A stretch of DNA of 64,000 nucleotides from Ornithobacterium rhinotracheale DSM 15997 (GTDB taxonomy: Bacteria; Bacteroidota; Bacteroidia; Flavobacteriales; Weeksellaceae), in the NCBI RefSeq assembly GCF_000265465.1, contig NC_018016.1:2222001-2286000 (forward strand), in the 5' to 3' direction. Below the pieces are notes generated by a model. The model worked only from the letters and a program-made list of their open reading frames with translations, did not search any database and was not told the origin of the DNA. Position numbers and translations under genes: made by a program. Positions 2,246 through 19,209 of this stretch are shown piece after piece. Each line of letters begins with the position of its first letter. Within the stretch, counting starts at the first letter, position 1.

Positions 2246-2246
<1 letters not shown>

Positions 2247-5200
2247 TATTTAATAACTTTAATAATTTTTCCTAAACGATTTACTTCTATTTTCCAACAA
2301 ATAGTTTTGATTAAAACTGGCTCGTTTTTTTCATTTTTTATAGATGTCTTTTCGTTAAATTCTATAATTCTTTGGGATTTATTATTTGTTCCATTTTCGT
2401 TTTCAATAATTGGTTTTGCAGTTCTTGAAGGAACAAAATAAGCTTCACTACCAGTACAGCTTACAAATTTGTATATTCGATCAATCTGATCCTTACTCAG
2501 ATTTTCAAAATCAACTAAATTCGGATTTTTTCTTTCTTCATTATTTGGAACAAAAACAAGTTCGTTTGGAGATAATGAAAATAAAAGTTGATTTCCCTTT
2601 TCATCTGTATCTGGACATGGATTTAATCCTTCTTTTTCTCTTTGTATAGCTAGAATTAAAGGTATTGTTTTAAAATCTCTTTTGTTGTTGTCAGAATAAA
2701 TTCCTAAAAAAAGATTTGTTCCTGTTGCGGTCTCTGCAAATTTTTTGTTTTTTTGTTGAGTGTAGCCAACCTTAATTTTATTTCCCAATGTTTCAAATAA
2801 TTTTACTCTTTTGATTGGTTGGTGTTCTTTGTTATTATTTAAGTGTTTAATGTTTTTGTTTAAATCTTTTAAGCCTTCAGGTGAAAAAGCAAGTTTTTCT
2901 GGTTTGATTGGGTTGCCATCTGAATCAAATTTATTATTGTATTTGGTGCTATTTAAATGTTTTAATAAAATATTCCTGATAGTTGGATCTAAAACTTTTC
3001 CTATTTTTTTAGGTGTAAAGCTTTCGTCGATCAATTGTCTAGATGATGATAAAATAGTTTTGTCTCTATTATCTTTAAAATCGTAAACTTCAACTTTTTG
3101 AATGTTATTGTCCTCAAAAATAAAATTACACTCTTTGAAAAAATTTATAATTTGGTTATTGTCGAATTTATTTACTTCTTTAAGTTCTTTAATTTTATGT
3201 TTTAAATTTTCGTCAATAATATTTTTGTAATTTTCTAAAGCAGATTTTAAAGGCAATTTTTTGCATACAATGCCATAGATTGTATCGATATGTAATGGCT
3301 TTCTAATAGCCCATGCATCTCCCTTTGTTTGCTTTTTTTGAATCTTTTTGTAAGTACCATCTTTTTGTTTTTCCCATTTTTTGTACCAATTAATTGTTTT
3401 ATTTATAATTCGTTTATTTACTTTAAAGTTTACAATTGTCGTTTCAAGCTTTTTAAGTGCATCTTGGGTAAATGATTCCCATGGTTTTATAAAATCTTTA
3501 AAAACCTGTTTTTTACTTCCCTCAGTTGTAATAGTTTCTCTTCTTTTTAATTTAGCGCGTAAATCATGTCGTTGATTTCTACTTTTTGCATATTGATTAT
3601 TTAAAAAGTTTATATGATTTCTCGTGGTACATGCTACAATAAGTGCATCCAAGGCATGATGTCTATGATCAATTCTTTTGGTGTTTAGAGTTGATAAATT
3701 GTCGTTTAAGTAATTTATTTGAAATACATTTTTTCCTTTTTTGTTTTCCCAATTACCATAAATTTTATTTTTATTAATATTGTTTAACCTTTCAAATCTT
3801 GGAGTTATCAATTTGTTCCAGATATTGTTTAGCCCCCAATCGTTTCTAAGTATAGATGTTATTTGGCCATTTGTACTTACTATTCTTTTAGCGGTACTTT
3901 CAAGCTCTCCTTTTTCTCTAACAATGTTAGATAACAATGATAATACAAGTTTTGATATATATTTAGTGTCATTAAGTTGTCTTTTAGTGAATGTGTCTGG
4001 AATTTCTTCCAAAAGTAAGTTTCTCAATTTTATAGAATTCTTTTTGAAAGATGTCCTCACGAGTTGTTTATATTCCTCTTGATTGAGGATCGTAACCGTT
4101 TCTCCATCAGATAGTTTAACGGCTTTTCCTCCCTTAGCTTTTATGAAATTCATAGCTAGTGAGTTGTCTTTTAGTTTGTTTACTTCAGCTTCACATATTA
4201 CTTTATTATTAAAACTATCATCAAAGAATTTAGTTTGAGGTATTATGTGTTCTTTTTGGTACTTTGCAGTGAAAAGTTTAGTTAAGGGAATAATTTTACC
4301 CGTGTAAGGTGATATATAGCCTTGTTCTAGCCAGAGTTTGTATTTTGTAATATCAGACTTAGATATTTTATTGTTGTTTCTAATTTTATTTATTTCCTTA
4401 ATTTTTTCAGAGTTTTCCTCTTTTGAGTAAATACCTTCGTCATAGATTTTTAAAATTTCTTGTTGAGATGGAGAATAAGGAGTTACATTCTCATACTTAG
4501 TATCGCTGGCCATCTCTATAAGTAGTGATTTAATTAAATTGTTTAATTTTTGATTCTTTGTATTGTTGTTAGTTATTTGAGCTCTTTTTTTTGAACTAGA
4601 TTTTATTTCCCTACTAAGTTCAATATGTATTTCAGAGAAGAAATTTTTACAACTTTTTCCGTGTATGACCCATATATCTTTAATTAACTTCAATGTTTCG
4701 TTGATTATTTTTTCTACGATTGGATTTCCAATAGAGTGCTGTTTTAAAAATTCTATTTTATCGGGAGAGTCCCAATATTTAATTTCCGAAACCTCAGAAA
4801 ATCTATTATAAGCAACATATGAAGCTAGCCATAATGGTAAATCTTGGAAATCATTTTTATCTTGTAATAAGATTGTTTTTTCTCGTACTCTGTCAGAGAT
4901 GCTATCGTCCACTTCTCCGTTAAGTATGTTCATAATCTTATTTTGAATATTATTGTCAATTTTGTTAAAAGACCAATATTTCCCAAATCGAACTAAACTA
5001 AGTAATTTTTTCAATGCCTTTTCAGAATACGCACCATATTCCTTTTTGAAAGGAGGAAATGAGATAAAGATATCTGAGAATTTTTTAGGTAATTTATTTT
5101 TTTCTGAGAATTTTTGAAGACCATTTTTTAATTCTCTTTCATCTTTTGCAGAATAGAGCAAAAGCCATAGACTTTCAATTTGTTCATTCGTTAATGTGAG

Positions 5201-6853
5201 TTTTTTGTCAACTTTTTTTAGATATTTTAAAATTTTAAAACGAGTCTCATTTAATAAGAAATTTCTATCGTTGTCTTTTGAATAATTCCATCTGTATTTT
5301 TCAAGAAGTTCAGTTCTAATTGCTTTTTCTGTAGGCCTTTTGATACCTTTTGCTATTAGATCATTTTTAACATTGTCATGCAAGTCAAAACATTTGTAGG
5401 ATAATAATTGAAGTTGATCTATTTTCTCTTTATCGTTTAACCATTCAAAAAAATGTTCTTTTGTTTCAAAATCAGGTAATAACTTACTTGTGATATCTTT
5501 CTCAAGCCCATCAATAATTTCATAAACTTTTAAATTCTTGATAAATTGTAATGTTCTGAATTCTTGATATAGAGGTTTGCTCTTTGCAATGCAATTTATT
5601 TTTTGAATTTGTTTTTCTCCGTTCAAATAATATTCTCGACTTTCAAAGCTACATTTGTTTATTGTGGAGTTTTTCTTTTTAAGATCTCTTTGATAGTAAA
5701 TTACATCATCAATGAGTAAATAACATAAATCTTTATTTTTAAGTTCTTTTTGTCTTGTACTATTTTTTGGATATAATTCAATGATGGATTTTTGGAATAA
5801 ATCTTCATTTAGTAGCTCAGGGTGGAATTCCTTTTGTTTCTCTAAAATTTGTTTTAGTTCATTTTTGTAAAACTTTCTATCTATAATGTTTATAAGTTCT
5901 CCATTTAATTTTTGGTTAGGATCCTTTAATAAATGTTCATAAAGATATGTTCCAACTGTCTTTCCGTAATTTTCAATTCTATCTTCCGTACTTTTTTTAA
6001 TAGCAATCCAATCTTTTTCTGAATCAACTAATTTTAAAGTTCTATCATCTTCACCATTTTTCTTCTTAATTATATTTCCTTTATTATCAAATTTTTCTGT
6101 TGAAATAAATTCTTTTGTGCTGCCAACCCAATCTAATAAAGATATTTTGCTTTTATTTTTATAAATCCATCCATTTTCTAGAGTAATAGTATAATTTTGA
6201 GCATCTTCTTTTTTTACATTAGTGACCTTTAGAGCATAGTATTTCTCAATTTTATTTTCCTTGTTTTCATCAGCATTATCATCTCTAAATTGATAATAAC
6301 CTCTTTTTTTATTGAAATTTAAAATAACCCAAGCAAGTTCTTCTTTTGAGATTTTTTGAGATAAGGCTTTCTTTCGTAAGTAGTAAATCGTCCAATCATA
6401 TGGTACATTTTTAATATTGTGTTTTGAAAATTCTTTTAACATTTCTCTGTAACTATCCATGAAAATAAATTCATGTTTTCCGTGGTCATTTTCTACATAT
6501 GAAATTTTTGGTTGAGAATTACCAAAAAATTGTCCTAAATGTTTTTTGAAATCAATTTTTTTAGAATAATGTTCAGGCAAAAAACCTAAAATATTTAATA
6601 CCCTATGCAATCTTTCTCTTCTTAGCTTTTTTCTTTCATATAACTTTCTTACACCTTTTTGTTTTGTTCTTTCAGCTGTTTTAGAGATAGATTCGCCTTT
6701 TGAAAATTTGTCTAAAGTTCTTTGATCTGTAGGTATCACAACAACACCGAGATCTATAATTTCTAAAGGTAATCTAGTTTTGTCATTTAGAACTTTGATT
6801 AAAGCCCATCCAATACTGTTGGTTCCAAGGTCTAATCCTAGAATAGTGTTCAT
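2246..6853 (-). CDS. cas9: Type II-C CRISPR-associated endonuclease Cas9
   Basis: Encodes 1535 aa, the RNA-guided nuclease that cuts target DNA with crRNA and tracrRNA. RuvC-I is at the N-terminus (LGLDLGTNSIGW, D8), followed by an Arg-rich bridge helix near residues 58-90. RuvC-II has E745 (HIELSRE). The HNH domain has H869 (EHIIPQ) and N892, which aligns with SpCas9 N863. RuvC-III has H1066 and D1069 (HHALDAL). All catalytic residues are therefore present. No csn2 or cas4 follows cas1-cas2, which defines subtype II-C. The protein is long for II-C, with extra length in the helical lobe and the C-terminal PAM-reading part. The C-terminus ends in a basic IEVNRLGKIIKVIK. PAM cannot be read from sequence. 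Confidence 0.98.
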
Positions 6854-10535: not shown

Positions 10536-10620
10536 AGTTTGGATTTAATGGTTGAATCCATAAAGGTAATAAAAAATAGGGATTTTATGCTTTTTTTAGC
10601 TTAAAACTTTTAAATCCTAC

Positions 10621-10640
10621 ATTCAAAACACAAATGCAAC
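10621..10640 (+). repeat. Left terminal inverted repeat of the phage-like element
   Basis: ATTCAAAACACAAATGCAAC matches the reverse complement of the right end (19149-19168) at 15 of 20 positions. The first six and last nine bases are identical. It is preceded by CCTAC. No copy of this repeat was seen just upstream of the transposase gene near 18.1 kb. Confidence 0.7.
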
Positions 10641-10667
10641 GCTTAAATAATTTAAAACTAAAAGCGT

Positions 10668-10913
10668 ATGCAAAGAGAAGAAATCAGACCTTTTTTGGTA
10701 GTACAGAAGTTTGTACCCATTCCCGTAAATCATTTAGAACCTAAGCAGTACATATATGAATATGGTATTGTAGTACAGGTGTTGAAACAAGAAAATAATA
10801 TTGAGGTATTATTTTCTGGTCGTTCGTGGATAACTTTTAAACCTAAGGATATTTTATATCATCGTGTGGCTGTGAAAAAAGAAGAAACCGATTTTTTTAT
10901 AGAAAGCCGATAG
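10668..10913 (+). CDS. Hypothetical protein, first gene of the phage-like element
   Basis: Encodes 81 aa, starting 28 bp inside the left terminal repeat. The composition is beta-rich and soluble (PFLVVQKFVPIPVNHL, then WITFKPKDILYHRV). I recognise no family. Being the first gene and preceding Rep it may be an early or regulatory function, but the sequence gives no direct evidence. Confidence 0.6.
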   Translation: MQREEIRPFLVVQKFVPIPVNHLEPKQYIYEYGIVVQVLKQENNIEVLFSGRSWITFKPKDILYHRVAVKKEETDFFIESR

Positions 10914-10971
10914 GCTTTTGAGTGGGCTCGTCTCAAGTATCGGTAAAATCTAACGGCAAAAATCCCTGTAA

Positions 10972-12135
10972 ATGCGACAATATCAAGAGGTTAATAATTA
11001 TTATTTGTGTGAAAAGGTTCAGCTTAGACCTACTAGCCTATTGCATTATAGTTATGTGATGGATTTACGAAATTACGAAGTAGGCTATGCTCCTACTTTA
11101 CGCCAAAATCTAAACAAGGAAAAAACAGAATTAGATGAGTTAAACGCACTAGATGATATTTCAGAGTTTGGTTCAATTGTTAAATATGCTGAAAAGTGTG
11201 TTGAGTTGTATAAGGAGAAACAACAAGAAGTGTATAATGAGAAAGGGCATGTTTTAAAGGATTTAGGAACGCTCTCGGATACTCAAGTAAGGAATATAAA
11301 AAAGTATGCTATTTTATTTGCTGACGCAACTAAATCAAACAAGGACAAATATTTATCTTTTGTAACCTTGACCTTGCCCAGTGCCCAAAAGCACCATGAT
11401 AGAGTGTTGCGTAAAATACTTGCTAAGTATCTTGACCATTTAAAAAAGGTCTATGGTTTAAAAAATTATCTCTGGAAAGCGGAGACGCAGAAGAATGGAA
11501 ATATTCATTTTCATGTTTTGATTGATACGCAAATCCCTCGTGAGGATATTCAGCGCATATGGAACCAGTATATAAATAAATATGGTTATGTTGATAGATA
11601 TTCTGAAAAGATGAACCGCTTAACGGCTAAAGAATATATGGCTAAGTATTCAAAAAATTATAAATCAGAAAAAGACTGCATACTAGCTTACCAGCGTAAT
11701 AAAAAAATGGGTTGGAGCAATCCCCCAAGTACTAAAATTGAAACGCCAAAGAGTAAACGAAATATAGTTGCGTATGTGGTGAAATATCTATTAAAGCAAG
11801 AAGAAAATAAACGCCCAGTAATTGGTGCGGTGTGGGGCGCATCAAATAAGGTAAAAAAACTCAATTATTTAAATTTTGAAGTTAGCAGTTATTTAGAGGA
11901 GTTAAACCACTTGCGGGGAAAATTGGAGTATGTGCCTACTGCTATTCAATTTGTAGAGTTGTATAAAGGTAAAGTATATCAGATGATCCGCAAGGGATAT
12001 AAAAAATTAAACGAGCATTTAAAAATTTATAATAAAGCCATAAGACAGTTATTAGATACCGATTTGAGTATAAATTTAGACCAGTTAATCCAATTAATTT
12101 ATGAAAAACAATACACAGAACTTGCAAATAATTAG
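10972..12135 (+). CDS. Rolling-circle replication initiator (HUH endonuclease, two-tyrosine type)
   Basis: Encodes 387 aa. The HUH superfamily motifs occur in order: motif 1 FVTLTL (VTLTL, residues 131-135), motif 2 HFHV (H179, H181) and motif 3 AYVVKYLLK with Y268 and Y272. Two tyrosines three residues apart resemble phiX174 gpA (YVAKYVNK) and typify superfamily 1 Reps of ssDNA phages. The protein would nick the double-stranded form at its origin, bind the 5' end covalently and drive rolling-circle synthesis. The C-terminal 100 residues are helical and Lys/Tyr-rich. An HTH gene overlaps its 3' end. Confidence 0.85.
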   Translation: MRQYQEVNNYYLCEKVQLRPTSLLHYSYVMDLRNYEVGYAPTLRQNLNKEKTELDELNALDDISEFGSIVKYAEKCVELYKEKQQEVYNEKGHVLKDLGTLSDTQVRNIKKYAILFADATKSNKDKYLSFVTLTLPSAQKHHDRVLRKILAKYLDHLKKVYGLKNYLWKAETQKNGNIHFHVLIDTQIPREDIQRIWNQYINKYGYVDRYSEKMNRLTAKEYMAKYSKNYKSEKDCILAYQRNKKMGWSNPPSTKIETPKSKRNIVAYVVKYLLKQEENKRPVIGAVWGASNKVKKLNYLNFEVSSYLEELNHLRGKLEYVPTAIQFVELYKGKVYQMIRKGYKKLNEHLKIYNKAIRQLLDTDLSINLDQLIQLIYEKQYTELANN

Positions 12136-12265
12136 TGCTAAGGAGCTAGCTAATTATTTAGGCGTAAGCTATTCCACTGCACGCATGATAAAAAAAGATA
12201 TTTTAAGCCACTATAAAAAGAAATATCTAACGCTAAAGCTCGTAAAAAAATATTTTGATGATTAG
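12101..12265 (+). CDS. Small helix-turn-helix DNA-binding protein
   Basis: Encodes 54 aa and overlaps the rep stop by 35 bases in another frame. The segment ISAKELANYLGVSYSTARMI is a winged-helix/excisionase-type HTH (helix, LGVS turn, recognition helix), followed by a basic tail (LSHYKKKYLTLKLVKKYF). It is the only regulator candidate in the element. It lies directly upstream of the tandem repeat at 12271, a plausible operator. It may regulate the structural genes or act with the transposase, by position only. Confidence 0.7.
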   Translation: MKNNTQNLQIISAKELANYLGVSYSTARMIKKDILSHYKKKYLTLKLVKKYFDD

Positions 12266-12270
12266 TGTCA

Positions 12271-12309
12271 AAAATTGGTATAAATCGCTTAAAAGTGGTA
12301 AAAATCGCT
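12271..12309 (+). repeat. Two tandem 20-bp repeats, candidate operator or origin iterons
   Basis: AAAATTGGTATAAATCGCT (12271-12289) and AAAAGTGGTAAAAATCGCT (12291-12309) match at 17 of 19 positions with an exact 20-bp spacing. They lie between the early genes (rep, HTH) and the structural genes, about 30 bp upstream of the -7 box at 12340. Confidence 0.7.
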
Positions 12310-12339
12310 AGATTTTAAAAAGTGCTTTTGCATGCTTAA

Positions 12340-12347
12340 TATCTTTG
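12340..12347 (+). promoter_or_regulatory. Candidate -7 box for the structural genes
   Basis: TATCTTTG matches TAnnTTTG and lies 28 bp before the ATG of the candidate capsid gene. No correctly spaced TTTG is present (TTTG at 12327 is only 9 bp away), so an activator may be needed. The upstream 20-bp repeats are a natural candidate site. Confidence 0.5.
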
Positions 12348-12375
12348 TTTCAGAAATTTAAAATAAGATATAAAA

Positions 12376-13026
12376 ATGAGAGTAACATTAGCAAAAGCAA
12401 CCGAGGTGCTGGAAGTTAAGGAAAGTGCAGCGGGTTTGATTTTAAAAGGTAATTCAAGTACCGATTTCGGACAGGTGCAAATTGAGTCTTACCTAGTAGA
12501 TGAAACCTTTACTAAAAAGGTTTTGGTGCCAAAGATGAGCGTTAAGCTATTTACAGAATTGTTGGGCGTTCATTTTGTTAAATTGCAAACAACAATTGGT
12601 AGCGACAAAGTAGCGGTAATTCCTTTTTCTAAATCTGGAAGTTTGCCATTAGGTGACAAAACTTACATTGAGTTCCATGTATCGGGTGGACAAGCACAGA
12701 ATGTAACTGCAGAAACATTTGAGGCTATTGGAAGTGCAGAGCCTATTTATGTGCAACAAGTGAAGCTTGACCAAAATATATCTGTAAAGGATGTTGATGT
12801 ATTAGCATTTGATTATTTGGTAGCTGAAAAGACACCAAATGAATTGCAAGTTATCAATGCACAGGGCAAAACAAGGATTTCGCAACTACAACTTGATTAT
12901 GCAAAAAATGCAAGGATTGATGAGTTATCGAAATTACCTGCATTGGATTTAACAGGCTTATACACCTTAGCAGTGTATAAAAATGTAGGAGAAGAATTTA
13001 CATTCTATTTGTTAGACGCAAAATAA
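12376..13026 (+). CDS. Candidate capsid protein (beta-rich) of the phage-like element
   Basis: Encodes 216 aa, with no signal peptide or membrane segment. It is almost wholly predicted beta strand with regular alternation (VQIESYLVDETF, KVAVIPFSKSG, KTYIEFHVSGG, LYTLAVYKNVG). It is the first gene after the internal promoter and is followed by membrane proteins, the usual place of a major capsid protein in tailless membrane phages. Known double-jelly-roll capsid proteins are usually longer (PM2 P2 is about 269 aa), so a single jelly roll or another virion protein is possible. No sequence family was recognised. Confidence 0.45.
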   Translation: MRVTLAKATEVLEVKESAAGLILKGNSSTDFGQVQIESYLVDETFTKKVLVPKMSVKLFTELLGVHFVKLQTTIGSDKVAVIPFSKSGSLPLGDKTYIEFHVSGGQAQNVTAETFEAIGSAEPIYVQQVKLDQNISVKDVDVLAFDYLVAEKTPNELQVINAQGKTRISQLQLDYAKNARIDELSKLPALDLTGLYTLAVYKNVGEEFTFYLLDAK

Positions 13027-13033
13027 TATTGAA

Positions 13034-13801
13034 ATGATTGGAGCAGTAACAGCGGTAAGTAGTTTAATTGGAAGTGTGGGGGGCGGTAACGCCTCCGGCT
13101 CCTCTCTTGGTCAATTTGGAGGAAAGATAGTAGGCGGTGTATTAAGTAAGATAACTGGGGGGTTAGATAGCGTTTTGGCAAACGGCTTTGATTTGCATTG
13201 TTGGGGCTCGAGCTGGTCGCCTAGTAGAGCGATGAAAGAAGGAACCACAATCGTTGAATGGATTATTGAACAATCTGGGTTTACTAAGGTAGCCAGTGCT
13301 GACAATTTTAATAAGGCGTTACTTTATTTAAAAGTCTGCGCTTCTGGTTTTCCATGGGGAAAGGATTGTACGAGAAAAGGAACTGAAGCATTGGCGGCTA
13401 TGATAACTGAGGCTTACGGGAGATTGCTTAAGGAGTATCAGACTAAGTTTGCCTATGTTGGTGATAAAGAATATCCAAAAGGAACTGATGTAAACTTAAA
13501 TTTCCCATTCCGTGACACTTCAAGAGGGGATGCCGTGAGTAAGGAAGTTTTGCGCGTGCCATTCTTTAGAGAAAAAACAGATGCTGAAAGACAAGCAGAT
13601 AGCCAAGCAGGTTCATCGGATTACAGACCTAGTAAGGATCAAACACTTAAAACAGGAATGCCTACAGAAGGTGCGTATCCTGCGGTAACAGACGGGGAGG
13701 TATATGGAAAAGCTACTGGACATGTTGGGCGAAATGACAATAACATTTTGTATTTATTACTAGGAGGGGCATTGATTTATTTATTAACAAAGAAAAAATA
13801 A
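13034..13801 (+). CDS. Putative virion protein with C-terminal membrane anchor
   Basis: Encodes 255 aa, 7 bp after the candidate capsid gene. The N-terminal 45 residues are Gly/Ser/Val-rich (VSSLIGSVGGGNASGSSLG), like membrane-active segments of phage pilot or penetration proteins. A Trp/Cys-containing helical middle (HCWGSSWSPSRAMKEG, then CASGFPWGKDC) follows. The C-terminus is one transmembrane helix and a basic tail (NNILYLLLGGALIYLLTKKK). It probably sits in the virion membrane or spans it during DNA delivery. Family unknown. Confidence 0.55.
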   Translation: MIGAVTAVSSLIGSVGGGNASGSSLGQFGGKIVGGVLSKITGGLDSVLANGFDLHCWGSSWSPSRAMKEGTTIVEWIIEQSGFTKVASADNFNKALLYLKVCASGFPWGKDCTRKGTEALAAMITEAYGRLLKEYQTKFAYVGDKEYPKGTDVNLNFPFRDTSRGDAVSKEVLRVPFFREKTDAERQADSQAGSSDYRPSKDQTLKTGMPTEGAYPAVTDGEVYGKATGHVGRNDNNILYLLLGGALIYLLTKKK

Positions 13802-13821
13802 CATTTAAAAACAAAATAAAG

Positions 13822-13985
13822 ATGAAAGAATTAATAACAAAAGTTGATAGTTTTTACTAAAGCCATTAAGTGGTAATGGTGCAGGGACAAGTATTGCGAC
13901 CTTTTTGGTTTTAGGATTGGGAGCAGTGATTTTATCCGTGTACATGGGCTGGATTAAAATCAAAGGAAAAAGAAGAGGCTGGTAA
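13822..13985 (+). pseudogene. Small membrane protein gene interrupted at a T5 run (frameshift)
   Basis: The ATG at 13822 gives 12 codons (MKELITKVDSFY) and stops at 13858. The -1 frame is open from the T run at 13851-13855 to a TAA at 13983. It reads LLKPLSGNGAGTSIATF, then a transmembrane helix LVLGLGAVILSVYMGWI and a basic KIKGKRRGW tail. Joining the frames at the T run gives a coherent 54-aa membrane protein. The second frame has no good start of its own. One missing T (mutation or sequencing error) or -1 slippage on TTTTTAC would explain it. Confidence 0.6.
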
Positions 13986-14008
13986 TTATTAACTAAAAAA
14001 GTATAGAA

Positions 14009-14428
14009 ATGGCGTATAATAATGGATATAGTAATGGTTGGGGTGGAAATCCCAACCCTAATTTTAACCGAGGTTATGACCGAGGTTATAATAATCAGAG
14101 ACAACCTAAAAAACATTCTGGGGCTAAAGCTGGACAATCCAAGAATGGAAGGTTTTATGTTACGGCTTGGAATTATTCAAAGCAAAGAGGTATGATAACT
14201 GTTAAAGCATTTGAAAACTCTAAGAGTGTGCGTTCAGAGTCTCCAAACACTGGAAATAGATTTATAACTATGATGTTTGAGGCTTTCTATAAAAAGACTG
14301 GCGCAAAGGTTTTAGAAATAGCAAGTTTCAATGTGAATACTGGAAAAGTGTATTTGCAAAAGCTGGGAATGGTAATTTCAACTAAAGCACCTAATGGTGG
14401 ATATTTCGGACAAATTAAAACTAGATAA
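14009..14428 (+). CDS. Basic Gly/Asn-rich protein, candidate ssDNA-binding or virion protein
   Basis: Encodes 139 aa. The first 45 residues are rich in Asn, Gly, Tyr and Arg (NPNFNRGYDRGYNNQRQPKK) and the rest is beta-rich and basic (GRFYVTAWNYSKQRGMITV). High positive charge and lack of hydrophobic segments fit nucleic-acid binding, for example coating of single-stranded genomes. This is inferred from composition; no family recognised. Confidence 0.5.
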   Translation: MAYNNGYSNGWGGNPNPNFNRGYDRGYNNQRQPKKHSGAKAGQSKNGRFYVTAWNYSKQRGMITVKAFENSKSVRSESPNTGNRFITMMFEAFYKKTGAKVLEIASFNVNTGKVYLQKLGMVISTKAPNGGYFGQIKTR

Positions 14429-14431
14429 GTT

Positions 14432-14635
14432 ATGTTTAAACAATTGAAAGGATTATTTAAATCATTGCCGTTGTTATTGAAGTATGTACAATGTGCAAAA
14501 ATATGTTTGCATCATGCGCACGAGGCAAAAAAAGAGATAGATACACTCTTTGATGATGTGGAGGGTAACGAGCCAGAGTACTTGAATGAAGAAGAACTTG
14601 CGGGTGTTCCTACGGATAAGGAACATATGTGGTAA
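14432..14635 (+). CDS. Small hypothetical protein of the phage-like element
   Basis: Encodes 67 aa, 3 bp after its neighbour. An amphipathic basic N-terminus (MFKQLKGLFKSLPLLLKYV) is followed by an acidic tail (DTLFDDVEGNEPEYLNEEE). No family recognised. The N-terminus could lie on a membrane surface. Confidence 0.5.
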   Translation: MFKQLKGLFKSLPLLLKYVQCAKICLHHAHEAKKEIDTLFDDVEGNEPEYLNEEELAGVPTDKEHMW

Positions 14636-14646
14636 AATATTGAGAG

Positions 14647-14754
14647 ATGACAAGTAAATTAATTACAAGTGTTTTAATTGCAGTGGTTTACATTGGAATG
14701 ATTATGTTATCAGATGTGTTGAAGGACCACATTAAAGATAGTTTTAAAGGATGA
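14647..14754 (+). CDS. 35-aa single-span membrane protein
   Basis: Reads MTSKLITSVLIAVVYIGMIM then a charged LSDVLKDHIKDSFKG. One transmembrane helix occupies about residues 5-22. The stop overlaps the next start in ATGA (14751-14754), which supports real translation. Similar tiny membrane proteins abound in phages with an internal lipid membrane. Exact role unknown. Confidence 0.55.
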   Translation: MTSKLITSVLIAVVYIGMIMLSDVLKDHIKDSFKG

Positions 14755-15224
14755 AGTTTTTAAGTGATTTGATGAAGAATAGTAAGCTATTGGCGTTATC
14801 GCTGATAGCTTTTATAATATTTTTGTTAGTTCGTAGATTTAATAGAGTTGTAACTGTTGTTAAACAAAAAATGGAGGATGCAAAGCCTTTGGTTTTAAAG
14901 GAAAAAACTACAGAACAGTTTGTGAAGACAAATTTTAGATTTTGGTCTGAAATGTTTAAAATGTTTTTTTCGGTTGGATCCTTTGACCCTTATTATGTTA
15001 CACATGGTGTAAGAACGTTTAAAACTCCATTGGAATATGGGATAGAGTTGGGGAAAAGTATTGTTCCAATTAAGACAAAACCAAAGTTAAACAATCAACC
15101 TAAGAGCTCCGCACCAAGTCCAAAGTTAAATAATCAACCTAAGATACCCGCACCAAAACCAAAGCTTCACCCAGAGTGGCAAAAGGTTTTGGATAAATTT
15201 AATAAATCGTTATATGGGCAATAA
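14751..15224 (+). CDS. Membrane protein with Pro/Lys repeats
   Basis: Encodes 157 aa. A transmembrane helix lies at about residues 12-28 (LLALSLIAFIIFLLV). A helical middle follows, then a C-terminal stretch in which PKLNNQPK occurs twice (PKLNNQPKSSAPSPKLNNQ). Type II topology with an extended Pro-rich stalk fits a virion membrane-to-capsid linker or spike base. Unrecognised family. Confidence 0.55.
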   Translation: MKFLSDLMKNSKLLALSLIAFIIFLLVRRFNRVVTVVKQKMEDAKPLVLKEKTTEQFVKTNFRFWSEMFKMFFSVGSFDPYYVTHGVRTFKTPLEYGIELGKSIVPIKTKPKLNNQPKSSAPSPKLNNQPKIPAPKPKLHPEWQKVLDKFNKSLYGQ

Positions 15225-15251
15225 GAGAAGAAATAAAAGAAGAGATAAAAA

Positions 15252-16115
15252 ATGACATATTTAAAAGCAATTGCCCTGCTAGCTGGAAGTTGGTGGGCTT
15301 ATAAAATATCAAAACCAAAGTCTAAAGTTGAGTTTGGAGAATTGGAACTAGTGGGCGTTGATATTCCAAATACAGAGAGTGAGACTAAAAGTGTTTTATC
15401 TATGCTTTTAGTACCTAATGGATTGAGATTTGCCAAAGGATATAATTCATATGCTGATTGGGGTTATACTTTGTTTGATATATTAATAAATCAAATTAAA
15501 AGTGGTGATTTGTTGATAAATCAAGCATCTTATATAATGGCTACAGCATATCATGAAATGGGTCAATTTAGTTTATTGCGTGAGCGTTATAATGATAAAA
15601 TTTCTGTTTTGAAGAAAACGCTTAAAGGGGATAAATTAAGGGAGTTTAACGAGTTTTTGAAGATTGCAGATACATTTGGTGTTAGTGCTGAAAAGGCTGT
15701 GTACATGGAGTGGAAGTATGGCGTACAATCTTGGTGTTATAATCCAGCTAGTAGAAGAAAGAATTTAAGTAATAAATATAAAGGTGATGGAGCTCGTTTT
15801 TTTGGTCGTGGATATTGCCAGTGGACTGGTAGGCATTTATATACTAAGTTTAAAGAGTTTTCTGGTGTAGATGTTTTGTCAAATCCAGATTTAATAGTAA
15901 ATGATAAGCGTTTAAATGCTTTAATGACCATAAAAATGATGATGGCTGATAAACCTAATAATTTAACGGGTGTTTCTTTAAAGCTTTATTGTAATGAAAA
16001 TAAAACAGATTATTACAATGCAAGAAGGGTTGTTAATTCTACAGATAGAGCAAAAGATATAGCCTCTTATGCTCAAAAGTTTGAAAATGTTTTTAATTCT
16101 TATTTAAAAAAATAG
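15252..16115 (+). CDS. GH19-like (chitinase/lysozyme fold) cell-wall hydrolase, membrane-anchored
   Basis: Encodes 287 aa. An N-terminal hydrophobic segment (LKAIALLAGSWWAYKI) is followed by a glycoside-hydrolase-19-like domain. The first acid is E102 in MATAYHEMGQFS, and the fold signature KGDGARFFGRGYCQWTGR is near residue 175. Enzymes of this type cleave peptidoglycan glycan strands. With a membrane anchor and no secretion cleavage site it is more likely virion-associated (local wall penetration during entry) than a free endolysin. Confidence 0.75.
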   Translation: MTYLKAIALLAGSWWAYKISKPKSKVEFGELELVGVDIPNTESETKSVLSMLLVPNGLRFAKGYNSYADWGYTLFDILINQIKSGDLLINQASYIMATAYHEMGQFSLLRERYNDKISVLKKTLKGDKLREFNEFLKIADTFGVSAEKAVYMEWKYGVQSWCYNPASRRKNLSNKYKGDGARFFGRGYCQWTGRHLYTKFKEFSGVDVLSNPDLIVNDKRLNALMTIKMMMADKPNNLTGVSLKLYCNENKTDYYNARRVVNSTDRAKDIASYAQKFENVFNSYLKK

Positions 16116-16118
16116 GTT

Positions 16119-16856
16119 ATGACACAGCGAGAAAAAAGAAAAATTAAGTTTTGGTTATTCATCTTTTTAATAATCTATCTATTATTTAGATTGACCAAAA
16201 AGACGAGTATAAAGGAGAAAGTAAGCACAGGAGATAATTCCTTGTTGCCACTGGATACAAATAAATTCAAGGAACCTGTGAGTTTGCCCAAAGTAGAAAA
16301 ACCAAAGTTTGATAAGGTTTTTGCAAAAGGCGGTTCTGCAGTGAGAAATGAAAAAGCATTTAGTCAAAAAGTTGATGATATGATGCAATCAGAAAAACAG
16401 AAGGGAAAAATACCAGTAAAAAGTGATGTGGTTAAAAAACTGCAGGAGGAGCAGGCAAATGATTTTTGTTCTGAATGTGAGGAAGAAAAGAGAAGGGAGC
16501 AGGAAGAAAGAAAGCGTAAAGAACAAGAAGAAATTAGAAAGAAGTTGCTTGAGAAGAAAAATAATTGCAACCAAATAAGTGAAGTTCCTGTAAAATTTCA
16601 TTATGATTGTGAGGAGCCCGAGAAAGTTAAAATAACTGGCATGGGTGGACTTGCTCTATTTAGAATGCCATCAACTGGGCATTGCAGGGTATTAAATTTA
16701 TATGGTGAAACTACACGTGTAATTCAGAGTTATAATGATGGGGAAAAAGAATATCTTGTTGAGCATGGGCATTATATAGATTTGTTGGGATATGTAAAGG
16801 CGCAGGTTTCAAATATTCAGCTTGATAGTAATGGGGGTTTTGAACAATTGAGTTAA
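16119..16856 (+). CDS. Membrane-anchored protein with charged coiled coil
   Basis: Encodes 245 aa, 3 bp after the hydrolase gene. A transmembrane helix at about residues 11-25 (FWLFIFLIIYLLFRL) is followed by a linker. A strongly charged helix at about 115-148 (EEEKRREQEERKRKEQEEIR) leads to a beta-rich C-terminal domain of about 90 residues (VKITGMGGLALFRMPSTGH). The layout suggests a virion spike or penton-like protein on a coiled-coil stalk. No family recognised. Confidence 0.5.
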   Translation: MTQREKRKIKFWLFIFLIIYLLFRLTKKTSIKEKVSTGDNSLLPLDTNKFKEPVSLPKVEKPKFDKVFAKGGSAVRNEKAFSQKVDDMMQSEKQKGKIPVKSDVVKKLQEEQANDFCSECEEEKRREQEERKRKEQEEIRKKLLEKKNNCNQISEVPVKFHYDCEEPEKVKITGMGGLALFRMPSTGHCRVLNLYGETTRVIQSYNDGEKEYLVEHGHYIDLLGYVKAQVSNIQLDSNGGFEQLS

Positions 16857-16873
16857 ACAAAAAATAAAGAGAT

Positions 16874-17047
16874 ATGACAAATTTTGTAGATAGGACAAAG
16901 ATTTATAGTATATTAGGATTTACGGGGGCGGTTTCGTTTGATGAGCTAAAACCGCTTCTAGCAAGTTTATTGGCTATTGTGCTTGATTTTGCGTATAGCT
17001 TTGCAAAAAAGAAAATTAAAGATTTAAAAGATAAAAAAGATGAGTGA
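16874..17047 (+). CDS. 57-aa single-span membrane protein, holin candidate
   Basis: Reads MTNFVDRTKIYSILGF at the start, a hydrophobic LLASLLAIVLDFAYSFA and a highly charged KKKIKDLKDKKDE end. Small size, one helix and a charged C-terminus are holin-like. The gene follows the muralytic gene cluster and overlaps the next start. This is inference from architecture only. Confidence 0.5.
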   Translation: MTNFVDRTKIYSILGFTGAVSFDELKPLLASLLAIVLDFAYSFAKKKIKDLKDKKDE

Positions 17048-17525
17048 TTGTGTGATAGTTATTGATAATAGAAAGTTTAGGAGTGAGCTTTTGTGTCGAG
17101 AGGTTTCTACAATTGATTTATCGGATAATTGTTATTATCAAGTAGGTCCATATTTTTATACCGCTAATGCATTTAAGCGTTATTTGATTGACAAGTCTGA
17201 TTATGTTATTTATAAAAGGTTGATACCATTGGACGGAGAACCTGTGAAAGATTTACCAAATTTTATAGATGGATATGATTCAAATTCAGCGATTTTGTTA
17301 AGTTATAATGTTGGAACTTTTTATGATGGTTTTGTTGTAACGAAGAATAAAAACGGATATCACTTTAGAAATAGTACTAGTAAATTTGTTGGGGTCTATC
17401 TTGATGTATCGGACGCGTATAGTCATGCAGTTTGCGAATTAGAGCCAGGACAAGAGTATCATTATGCAGGTACTGGACCTTTCCTGTTGTATGACGCAGA
17501 AGAGGAGATTAAAGGTGTTGAGTAA
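17040..17525 (+). CDS. Hypothetical protein of the phage-like element
   Basis: Encodes 161 aa, overlapping both neighbours by a few bases. It is soluble and beta-rich with many aromatic residues (NCYYQVGPYFYTANAFKRYL, then FLLYDAEEE near the end). It could be a receptor-binding or spike domain, but no family was recognised. Confidence 0.5.
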   Translation: MSDCVIVIDNRKFRSELLCREVSTIDLSDNCYYQVGPYFYTANAFKRYLIDKSDYVIYKRLIPLDGEPVKDLPNFIDGYDSNSAILLSYNVGTFYDGFVVTKNKNGYHFRNSTSKFVGVYLDVSDAYSHAVCELEPGQEYHYAGTGPFLLYDAEEEIKGVE

Positions 17526-17734
17526 TGAGCCATAAAAATGATTATTCGTGTATAGTTTTCGGAGCCTTTGGAGTGTTCAAAATGCAATATGTGCACGATT
17601 TATACAGGTTCAGCAAGTGGCTTGATAGTTCCAAGTTTAGAGATTGGAAATATTTTAATGTGTATGACCGTAGGACTGGGGAGTATTTAAGACGCTTCTA
17701 CAATGGAAACTATATACCAAGATTTTTAAATTAA
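17525..17734 (+). CDS. Small hypothetical protein, last gene of the structural operon
   Basis: Encodes 69 aa and starts on the last base of the previous stop codon. It is rich in aromatic and basic residues (YRFSKWLDSSKFRDWKYFNV). A strong terminator follows at 17761. Function unknown. Confidence 0.5.
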   Translation: MSHKNDYSCIVFGAFGVFKMQYVHDLYRFSKWLDSSKFRDWKYFNVYDRRTGEYLRRFYNGNYIPRFLN

Positions 17735-17760
17735 TTTGTTTGTTTTGAATAATGAGAGAG

Positions 17761-17796
17761 ACTGCACCTTTGTTGGTGTGGTTTCTTTTTTTTTTA
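17761..17796 (+). terminator. Terminator of the structural operon
   Basis: ACTGCACC pairs with GGTGTGGT (two G-T pairs) across TTTGTT, followed by a long T run. It separates the phage structural genes from the secreted protein and transposase. Confidence 0.75.
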
Positions 17797-17867
17797 TCTT
17801 TTTGCTTTGCACTATTTGGCATTTGTTTTGATAATGGTATTAACATATTTAAAAATCACTTAAAATC

Positions 17868-18191
17868 ATGAAAAAAATATTACTATCATTTGGATTATGT
17901 TTAGCCGTAACCGCTGGATATGCACAAAGCAAGGAGGCAAAAAAAGAAATAAGAAAGTACTACACTGAAAAACAGATTAAGTACATTGAAAAAGAGTTAA
18001 AAGAATATATAAGTAATTGTGATGATATTTTGAATTTATCTAATTCTTTAGATGAGAAACTTTTTAAGAATAAAGGGCATTTGATTGCTTATTTTGATTT
18101 TTTTATTAATCCACTTTATGATGATTTTTGTACGAAGGGTGAGGTTTATGGATATGGTTTGAAGATAAGTAGATTAATAAATGGTGAGTGA
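17868..18191 (+). CDS. Small secreted protein, possible cargo of the element
   Basis: Encodes 107 aa. The N-terminus is a clear signal peptide (MKKILLSFGLCLAVTAGYAQ, cleavage after AYAQ-like GYAQ). The mature part of about 87 residues is Lys/Glu-rich and helical (EIRKYYTEKQIKYIEKELKE). It lies outside the structural operon after the terminator and its stop overlaps the transposase start (TGATG). That suggests an accessory gene co-transcribed with the transposase. Family unknown. Confidence 0.6.
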   Translation: MKKILLSFGLCLAVTAGYAQSKEAKKEIRKYYTEKQIKYIEKELKEYISNCDDILNLSNSLDEKLFKNKGHLIAYFDFFINPLYDDFCTKGEVYGYGLKISRLINGE

Positions 18192-19166
18192 TGGCACGGA
18201 GATTTAAACATTTAGATTTGTGTGAAAGGGCTAAAATAGAGGCGTATTTAACGGCTGGTTGGTCTATCTCTAAAATAGCCCGTGAACTGAAAAGGGATAA
18301 ATCTACGATAAGCCGTGAAGTGAGGAGGAACCGAACGAAGAAAGGAAAGTATAAAGCAAAGACTGCACAGACGCTCTATTCTGAAAAGAAAGAGCGTTTT
18401 TTGCGTTATAGACGCTTTACAAAAGACATTGAGAAAAGAGTAAGACAATTTTTTGTATAAAAGATATTCGCCCCTGCAGATTGTGGGGTATTGCAAAAAA
18501 ATGGGGTTTGCTATGGTTTCAGTGGAAAGAATTTACCAATATATAAGGGCTGATAAATTGAAAGGTGGTAAATTATATAAATATTGCAGGCACGCTTTGA
18601 AAAAGAGAAAGGCACAGGTTTCTAAAATTGTTGGAAAGATAAAGAACCGCACTAGTATAGAAGAACGCCCGCAGGTTGTGAATGAGCGTAAGGAGTTCGG
18701 ACACTGGGAGGGTGATTTAGTAGAGGGCAAAAATCATAAGGGTTATTTGCTGACACTTACGGAAAGAGTATCAAGGTTTTTGTTTGTAAAGTATATACCA
18801 AATAAAACAGCTGATGTGGTCGCTCGTGCTATTATTGATGTGTTACTTCCTTATAAAAAAGTGGTCAAATCAATAACCGTGGATAATGGTTTAGAGTTTT
18901 CAAATCATGATATAGTGTCCAATAAACTGCAAGCACAGATTTATTTTACAAATCCATACTCTAGTTGGCAAAAGGGGCAAATTGAGCACATGAACAAACT
19001 TATTAGACAGTATGTAAAAAAAGGTTCGGCAATTACAAAAAGTACCGCTAACAAGCTGAAAGCGGTACAAAAAGAGATAAACGATAGACCGTTTAAAGTG
19101 TTAAAGTTTTGCAAGCCTCGTGATGTTTTTTATACATTTGTGGAAAATGTTGCATTTAGTGCTTGA
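18191..19166 (+). pseudogene. IS30-family transposase, frameshifted at a T6 run
   Basis: The first part (18191-18460) has the IS30 N-terminal HTH (HLDLCERAKIEAYLTAGWS, then KRDKSTISREVRRN). The rest continues in another frame from about 18453 to 19166 with the DDE core: D in WEGDLVEGK, D in TVDNGLEFS, E in KGQIEHMNKLIRQY. The frames join at CAATTTTTTGTA (18446-18457). Removing one T restores a continuous protein of about 325 aa. Either it is inactivated, or made by +1 slippage, or the T run is misread. IS30 enzymes use short terminal inverted repeats, which here bound the whole phage-like element. Confidence 0.85.
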
Positions 19167-19168
19167 AT
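19149..19168 (-). repeat. Right terminal inverted repeat of the phage-like element
   Basis: Plus strand GTTGCATTTAGTGCTTGAAT. Its reverse complement pairs with 10621-10640 at 15 of 20 positions. It overlaps the last codons of the transposase gene, as is usual for IS30-family ends. Confidence 0.7.
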
Positions 19169-19175
19169 CTAGCAA

Positions 19176-19209
19176 TAAAAAAACAATCCCCAATAAATTG
19201 AGGATTGTT
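19176..19209 (-). terminator. Terminator of trxB
   Basis: AACAATCC (19182-19189) pairs with GGATTGTT (19202-19209). Read leftward it is followed by a T run (A run on the plus strand at 19177-19183). It lies 29 bp after the trxB stop. Confidence 0.75.

Follow-up and report, generated by a model that had tools for sequence, protein, structure and literature searches.

A predicted tailless single-stranded DNA phage of Ornithobacterium rhinotracheale that probably integrates with its own IS30-type transposase

The chromosome of Ornithobacterium rhinotracheale DSM 15997 (NC_018016.1) was analyzed over a stretch of 64,000 nucleotides (positions 2,222,001 to 2,286,000; the window, in whose numbering all coordinates are given unless a locus is named) that contains a provirus unit at 10616-19173. 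The unit begins with a terminal inverted repeat on the forward strand (CCTACATTCAAAACACAAATGCAA, 10616-10639), ends with its counterpart on the reverse strand (TTGCATTTAGTGCTTGAATCTAGC, 19150-19173), and is flanked by the trinucleotide AAT on the left (10613-10615) and on the right (19174-19176). Between the repeats lie genes, all on the forward strand, for a rolling-circle replication initiator (Rep), a candidate capsid protein, a virion structural protein, a lysozyme and an IS30-family transposase. Very probably this is the provirus of a temperate, tailless single-stranded DNA (ssDNA) phage of the kind represented by PhiCjT23, FLiP and the Obscuriviridae, with a capsid protein of double jelly-roll fold and with an IS30-family DDE transposase of its own serving as the integrase. 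A first-pass annotation, made from the sequence, had suggested a tailless Bacteroidota ssDNA phage integrating as an IS30-type transposon, and the gene content and a predicted protein fold support that suggestion.

The borders of the element were defined by comparing copies. Eleven copies in the same genome and seven in two congeneric genomes share both ends, comprising short, imperfect terminal repeats of the IS30 type (24 bp; in the window copy 17 of 24 positions match and CTA is included at both ends) whose outer bases are allelic. The first-pass annotation had placed the borders at 10621 and 19168, on a 20-bp inverted repeat matching at 15 of 20 positions (10621-10640 and 19149-19168); it recognized the right kind of boundary and missed its position by a few bases. 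Taken alone, such a repeat is not significant, as 15 of 20 matches were reached in 128 of 200 shuffles of both stretches, and it is the 18 copies beginning and ending there that establish it as real. In all 11 own-genome copies the left end reads NNNN-CATTCAAAACACAAATGCAACG and the right end GAATCTAGC. The four outer bases on the left are CCTA in the window copy and TCTA or GGCA in others, so that CTA is missing from the left end in 5 of 11 own-genome copies (GGCA instead), and the right end carries CTAGC in 11 of 11. Because these outer bases vary between copies, CTA is part of the element end; its proposed role as the target duplication is ruled out by the copies that lack it on the left, and the duplicated trinucleotide is AAT. 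Four alleles of these outer bases (CCTA, TCTA, GGCA and GCTA) occur across loci L009-L018 and L071-L077. GGCA marks the left end of the five own-genome copies but the right end of most copies in congeners, a pattern suggestive of exchanged ends.

The own-genome copies, each complete and 8.3-8.6 kb long, are dispersed over both strands of the single 2.40-Mb contig, together with a right-end remnant at contig positions 406722-406877 (L019); of the congeners G001 and G002, one contains six copies and the other a single copy. No near-identical match to the element was present in phage records, and none was found with Rep as a single query against genome and viral contigs. When the joined flanks of each copy were compared with three congeneric genomes, several insertion sites proved to be uninterrupted. 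The window site is empty in G002 (CTTTTAAATAAAAAAAC, 97.5% identity over 993 bp), an exact empty site of the sort that the first-pass annotation had anticipated, with a single AAT in place of the single CTA it expected. As assembled, four own-genome copies are flanked by perfect 3-bp duplications, and the flanks of the other seven pair crosswise, the left flank of L010 and the right flank of L009, for example, being contiguous in both G001 and G002. We therefore re-paired the flanks of these seven copies by synteny with G001 and G002 (six pairs directly, the left of L018 and the right of L012 by exclusion), after which perfect 3-bp duplications are found at 11 of 11 own-genome sites. With 6 of 7 congener copies, this gives 17 of 18 overall after synteny pairing. 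A 3-bp match is expected at about 0.04 per site from the base composition of the target sites, so the 11 duplications are not due to chance. The target sites have a guanine plus cytosine (GC) content of 15-25%, are mostly intergenic and show a weak T-rich, C/T-A consensus on the left; the palindromic target known for IS30 was not seen among them.

Relative to the congeners, the flank swaps form one 3-cycle (L009, L010 and L015) and one 4-cycle (L011, L012, L016 and L018), which would take five or more recombinations of one copy with another, unless the assembly went wrong across the long repeats. The element copies appear to serve as chromosomal recombination points, if the swaps are not such errors. 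One CAT trinucleotide is the exact site of divergent elements in two species (left flank of L012 with right flank of L011 in the own genome, G000, and L074 in G001), which may represent an old common insertion with later replacement or a hot spot.

The transposase gene (18188-19166) encodes an N-terminal HTH_38 helix-turn-helix domain (PF13936, E = 9e-16) and an rve domain (E = 1e-10) with a conserved DD(33)E triad (D175, D231 and E265). In most other copies it is a single frame of 324-325 amino acids, and in the window copy a run of six T replaces the in-frame T5 or TTTCT of the other 17 copies and breaks the gene into two frames (18188-18460 and 18453-19166); this frameshift, in the T run at 18440-18460, may be real decay or a sequencing error. 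The right repeat overlaps the end of the gene and no second copy of the repeat is seen on its left side, both as first reported. All 12 transposase matches in the own genome fall inside the 11 elements, so there is no stand-alone insertion sequence. The lack of a stand-alone transposase copy in turn identifies the whole phage as the mobile unit. The element shares with IS30 insertion sequences the DD(33)E triad, the N-terminal HTH_38, the imperfect repeats, the right repeat lying over the gene end and the duplication, whose 3 bp fall within the 2-3 bp of that family. It differs in enclosing a whole phage genome of 8.3-8.6 kb between its ends, where an IS30 element measures about 1.1 kb; far from being a compact transposase-only sequence, the 8.5-kb unit holds about 15 further genes. 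Judging from the empty sites, the duplications and the missing stand-alone IS30, the transposon ends do enclose the Rep, structural and lysis genes, as had been claimed, and the genomic comparison shows the entire genome between the 24-bp ends to be what was transposed, with 3-bp duplications at AT-rich sites, to 11 places in this chromosome.

The remaining genes were delimited from open reading frames and comparison of copies. An 81-residue protein found in every copy (10668-10913) precedes Rep (10972-12135), a 387-residue HUH initiator (PF23343, E = 1e-13) with HFH and YVxKY motifs evident by alignment. Next come a 54-residue helix-turn-helix protein (12101-12265), which gives weak domain matches and occupies the same position in relatives, the 216-residue capsid candidate (12376-13026) and a 255-residue protein (13034-13801) with a Gly-rich N-terminus and a C-terminal membrane anchor ending in TKKK. 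Relatives have the same anchor at this position, and the protein is probably a membrane or virion protein. A small membrane protein (13824-13985; 54 residues in other copies) carries a single-base frameshift in the window copy and is intact elsewhere, which again may reflect decay or sequencing error. The 139-residue product of 14009-14428 is a virion structural protein homologous to gp6 of the Obscuriviridae (phrog_20522, E = 2e-9; tblastn to phi18:4, Omtje and phi12:2, E down to 2e-7). The gp6 proteins concerned are those of the ssDNA Cellulophaga phages phi18:4, phi12:2, phi12a:1 and Omtje, which make up that family (PMC12451628). It is followed by a 67-residue protein (14432-14635), a 35-residue membrane peptide (14647-14754), a 157-residue protein with an N-terminal membrane segment (14751-15224), a GH19-like lysozyme or endolysin that is allelic between copies (15252-16115; phrog_181, E = 3e-16; PF00182, E = 5e-5, below the cut-off), a 245-residue membrane-anchored protein (16119-16856), a 57-residue membrane protein (16874-17047), a variable 161-residue protein (17040-17525), a 69-residue protein kept in all relatives at 42-48% identity (17525-17734) and, in a hypervariable slot, a 107-residue protein with a signal peptide (17868-18191; 37-100% identity between copies). 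GC skew is 0.28 in the element and at most 0.13 in the 8.5-kb stretches to its right.

The capsid assignment draws on position, just after Rep and the helix-turn-helix gene, and on more distant relatives described below. The 216-residue protein matches its counterpart at L154 (blastp, E = 3e-5) and a profile of the counterparts at L155, L153 and L124 (hhalign, E = 1e-4, probability 58%). An AlphaFold2 model of the L155 protein, built from an eight-row family alignment (pLDDT 75.5, pTM 0.65), comprises two beta-sandwich units, each with a helix. Among PDB structures it matches the capsid protein of STIV best (E = 2.5e-4, probability 1.00), and those of PRD1 and PR772 appear lower in the ranking. 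The capsid profile matched no PDB sequence, and no similarity to Obscuriviridae gp4 was detected. On this modeled fold, the window protein is a candidate capsid protein of the double jelly-roll family.

Comparison between species indicates purifying selection on the core genes, with ratios of nonsynonymous to synonymous substitution (dN/dS) of 0.09-0.11 (Rep 0.11, capsid candidate 0.09, gp6-like protein 0.10, transposase about 0.1). The lysozyme alleles are 30-42% identical to one another (dN/dS 0.77), and cassettes of the lysozyme, 161-residue and 107-residue genes have been swapped among copies. The slot between the 69-residue gene and the transposase is occupied from copy to copy by secreted proteins unrelated to one another (107 residues at 17868-18191 in the window; 471 and 189 residues at L124:10520-12517 in G436), which are probably cargo.

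A type II CRISPR array starts just left of the window (second spacer at L021:666-695) and runs to about position 920, followed by cas9 at 2246-6853. The second spacer matches rep at 29 of 30 positions in congener copies and at 27 of 30 in all resident copies, most simply read as the trace of an infection by a related phage.

Related elements extend beyond the genus. A 10.7-kb element in G436, a genome of another genus of the same family, has the same gene order and a transposase 41% identical, and its ends, ATT-CGTAAGTTCAAGTAGCTAGTGCAA and TTGCACTTCAAACTTGAATCTGCC-ATT, comprise the same kind of repeat with a 3-bp duplication. A remnant of the G436 type in Elizabethkingia miricola (NZ_LSGQ01000007.1, L176), downstream of an Rhs-type gene, retains a fragment of the 69-residue-like gene, cargo, the transposase and the same right end; when the 80 top-scoring IS30 relatives in genome contigs were inspected, no other additional locus had phage genes. 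The gp6-like gene occurs in 7 of 320 genomes of the host family, and in three of the seven (G420, G603 and G255; loci L153-L155) the same core genes lie without a transposase between dif-like direct repeats. Because the transposase elements and these dif-flanked relatives share a core, we conclude that one kind of phage carries two different integration modules.

A simple life cycle can be proposed on this basis. IS30 transposes through a circular intermediate with abutted ends, and the element would be expected to do likewise. By analogy with other phages that have an HUH Rep, rolling-circle replication by Rep would pass through a double-stranded DNA (dsDNA) circle in which both ends abut, with an expected junction of ...GAATCTAGC-(0-3 bp)-CCTACATTC... 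The most economical model is that these two circles are one molecule. Since such a circle is the IS30 intermediate, the transposase could either integrate the replicative form as it is or generate the circle from the chromosome by copying, and the capsid and lysozyme genes would then make and release virions. On induction the element would be copied out while the prophage stays where it is, and lysogeny would be paste-in at random sites. We put this identity of the two circles forward tentatively, as a little short of an even prospect; if true, it would give a tailless virus with an ssDNA genome a life cycle resembling that of Mu.

Several observations weigh against the interpretation as a phage that integrates by transposition. 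The element is known here from sequence; neither virions nor plaques were observed, nor was any circular junction, and viral contigs did not contain the abutted-end junction. The window copy, frameshifted in the transposase and in the membrane gene, is probably itself immobile and defective. The capsid assignment depends on a relative's model (pLDDT 75) and a short profile match; a model of the window protein built with its close homologs (pLDDT 33) was discarded, and hhalign found no similarity to the FLiP capsid protein (probability 0.2%). The flank swaps in seven copies may also be assembly errors across 8.5-kb repeats.

Some of these points would suit a dead or purely transposing element, whose phage genes are passengers and which spreads within the cell without forming virions. 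The frameshifts (the two in the window copy and another in the Rep of L010), the high copy number in one chromosome and the lack of a known isolate fit this view, which we nevertheless regard as unlikely given the purifying selection on the capsid-like and structural genes (dN/dS 0.09-0.10), the cassettes of allelic lysozyme and surface genes, as phages typically have, the host CRISPR spacer and the related elements in other genera. A filamentous phage of the inovirus or plectrovirus type with its own transposase is much less probable still. Rep does resemble records of uncultured Inoviridae (24% identity), and integration by an own transposase has been published for filamentous phages, but Pfam scans of the larger open reading frames revealed no Zot/pI-type assembly ATPase, the structural protein is homologous to that of the non-tailed, icosahedral Obscuriviridae, and a lysozyme accompanies the double jelly-roll fold modeled for the relative. 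That an IS30 element inserted into an ordinary dif-integrated ssDNA prophage, with a coincidental left end, is scarcely credible despite the three relatives at dif-like repeats without a transposase and the insignificance of the 15/20 repeat alone, being refuted already by the empty sites and opposed by duplications exactly at the outer ends in 17 of 18 copies at many sites, by the absence from this genome of a stand-alone IS30 copy and of a second inverted repeat beside the transposase, and by the identical arrangement in G436.

The preferred interpretation, a tailless ssDNA phage with its own transposase, bears on a group of viruses central to ideas linking the ssDNA and dsDNA virus lineages. 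In the literature covered, integration by host XerCD at dif is the sole route described for double jelly-roll ssDNA phages; the present element appears instead to establish itself in the host by transposition, its known relatives relying on XerCD and dif. One branch appears to have exchanged the dif route for a transposase and become a high-copy, dispersed element. With close relatives available for each mode, the switch and its consequences for copy number, site choice, immunity and chromosome rearrangement are directly testable.

Prophages of the FLiP group and of the PhiCjT23 type are already known (PMC9719478, PMC13269007, PMC5894146, PMC8682789). The literature covered on these phages mentions no transposase for them, and searches found no IS30-type tailless ssDNA phage, an absence that is not proof since the subscription literature was mostly uncovered. 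PhiCjT23 is a temperate phage with a circular ssDNA genome of 7.6 kb that integrates via host XerC/XerD at dif (PMC9719478). The window element resembles the PhiCjT23-like Flavobacterium prophages, whose gene order is that of G420, G603 and G255, in that a minimal double jelly-roll capsid gene comes after an HUH Rep, the fold being taken from the relative's protein only. It differs in having an IS30 transposase of its own, in duplicating 3 bp of the target and in occurring at dispersed sites in as many as 11 copies, and it lacks the dif-like repeats, which are confined to L153-L155. With the Obscuriviridae (phi12a:1, phi18:4, Omtje) it shares the gp6 homolog and a gene order in which Rep is followed by a small protein, then three genes for structural proteins and the lysis gene; those phages are 6.5 kb long, with another Rep family, another lysis enzyme and no integration gene, so that of the family core (Rep, lysis enzyme and eight structural proteins) gp6 alone is recognizable. 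FLiP (Finnlakeviridae) likewise has ssDNA (predicted here), a double jelly-roll capsid, a lytic enzyme and a Bacteroidota host, and differs in a capsid protein without detectable similarity; FLiP itself is reported as non-integrating (PMC13269007).

Parallels in mechanism lie among the filamentous phages. The first-pass annotation pointed to the ssDNA plectroviruses of Spiroplasma, which reportedly carry IS30-family transposases, and the filamentous phages of Neisseria offer a further precedent. The Neisseria enzyme is reportedly of the Piv/IS110 type, not IS30. Transposases are present in inovirus genomes (PMC6813254), and for Neisseria it was proposed that filamentous ssDNA phages integrate by means of a transposase that they encode themselves (Kawai et al. 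2005, cited in PMC9778887). The Neisseria phages match the present element in being ssDNA phages with many sites and their own transposase, and differ in being filamentous. Integration by an own transposase is thus already known in filamentous ssDNA phages, and what the genomic comparison would add is an IS30-type mode in a tailless kind of ssDNA phage.

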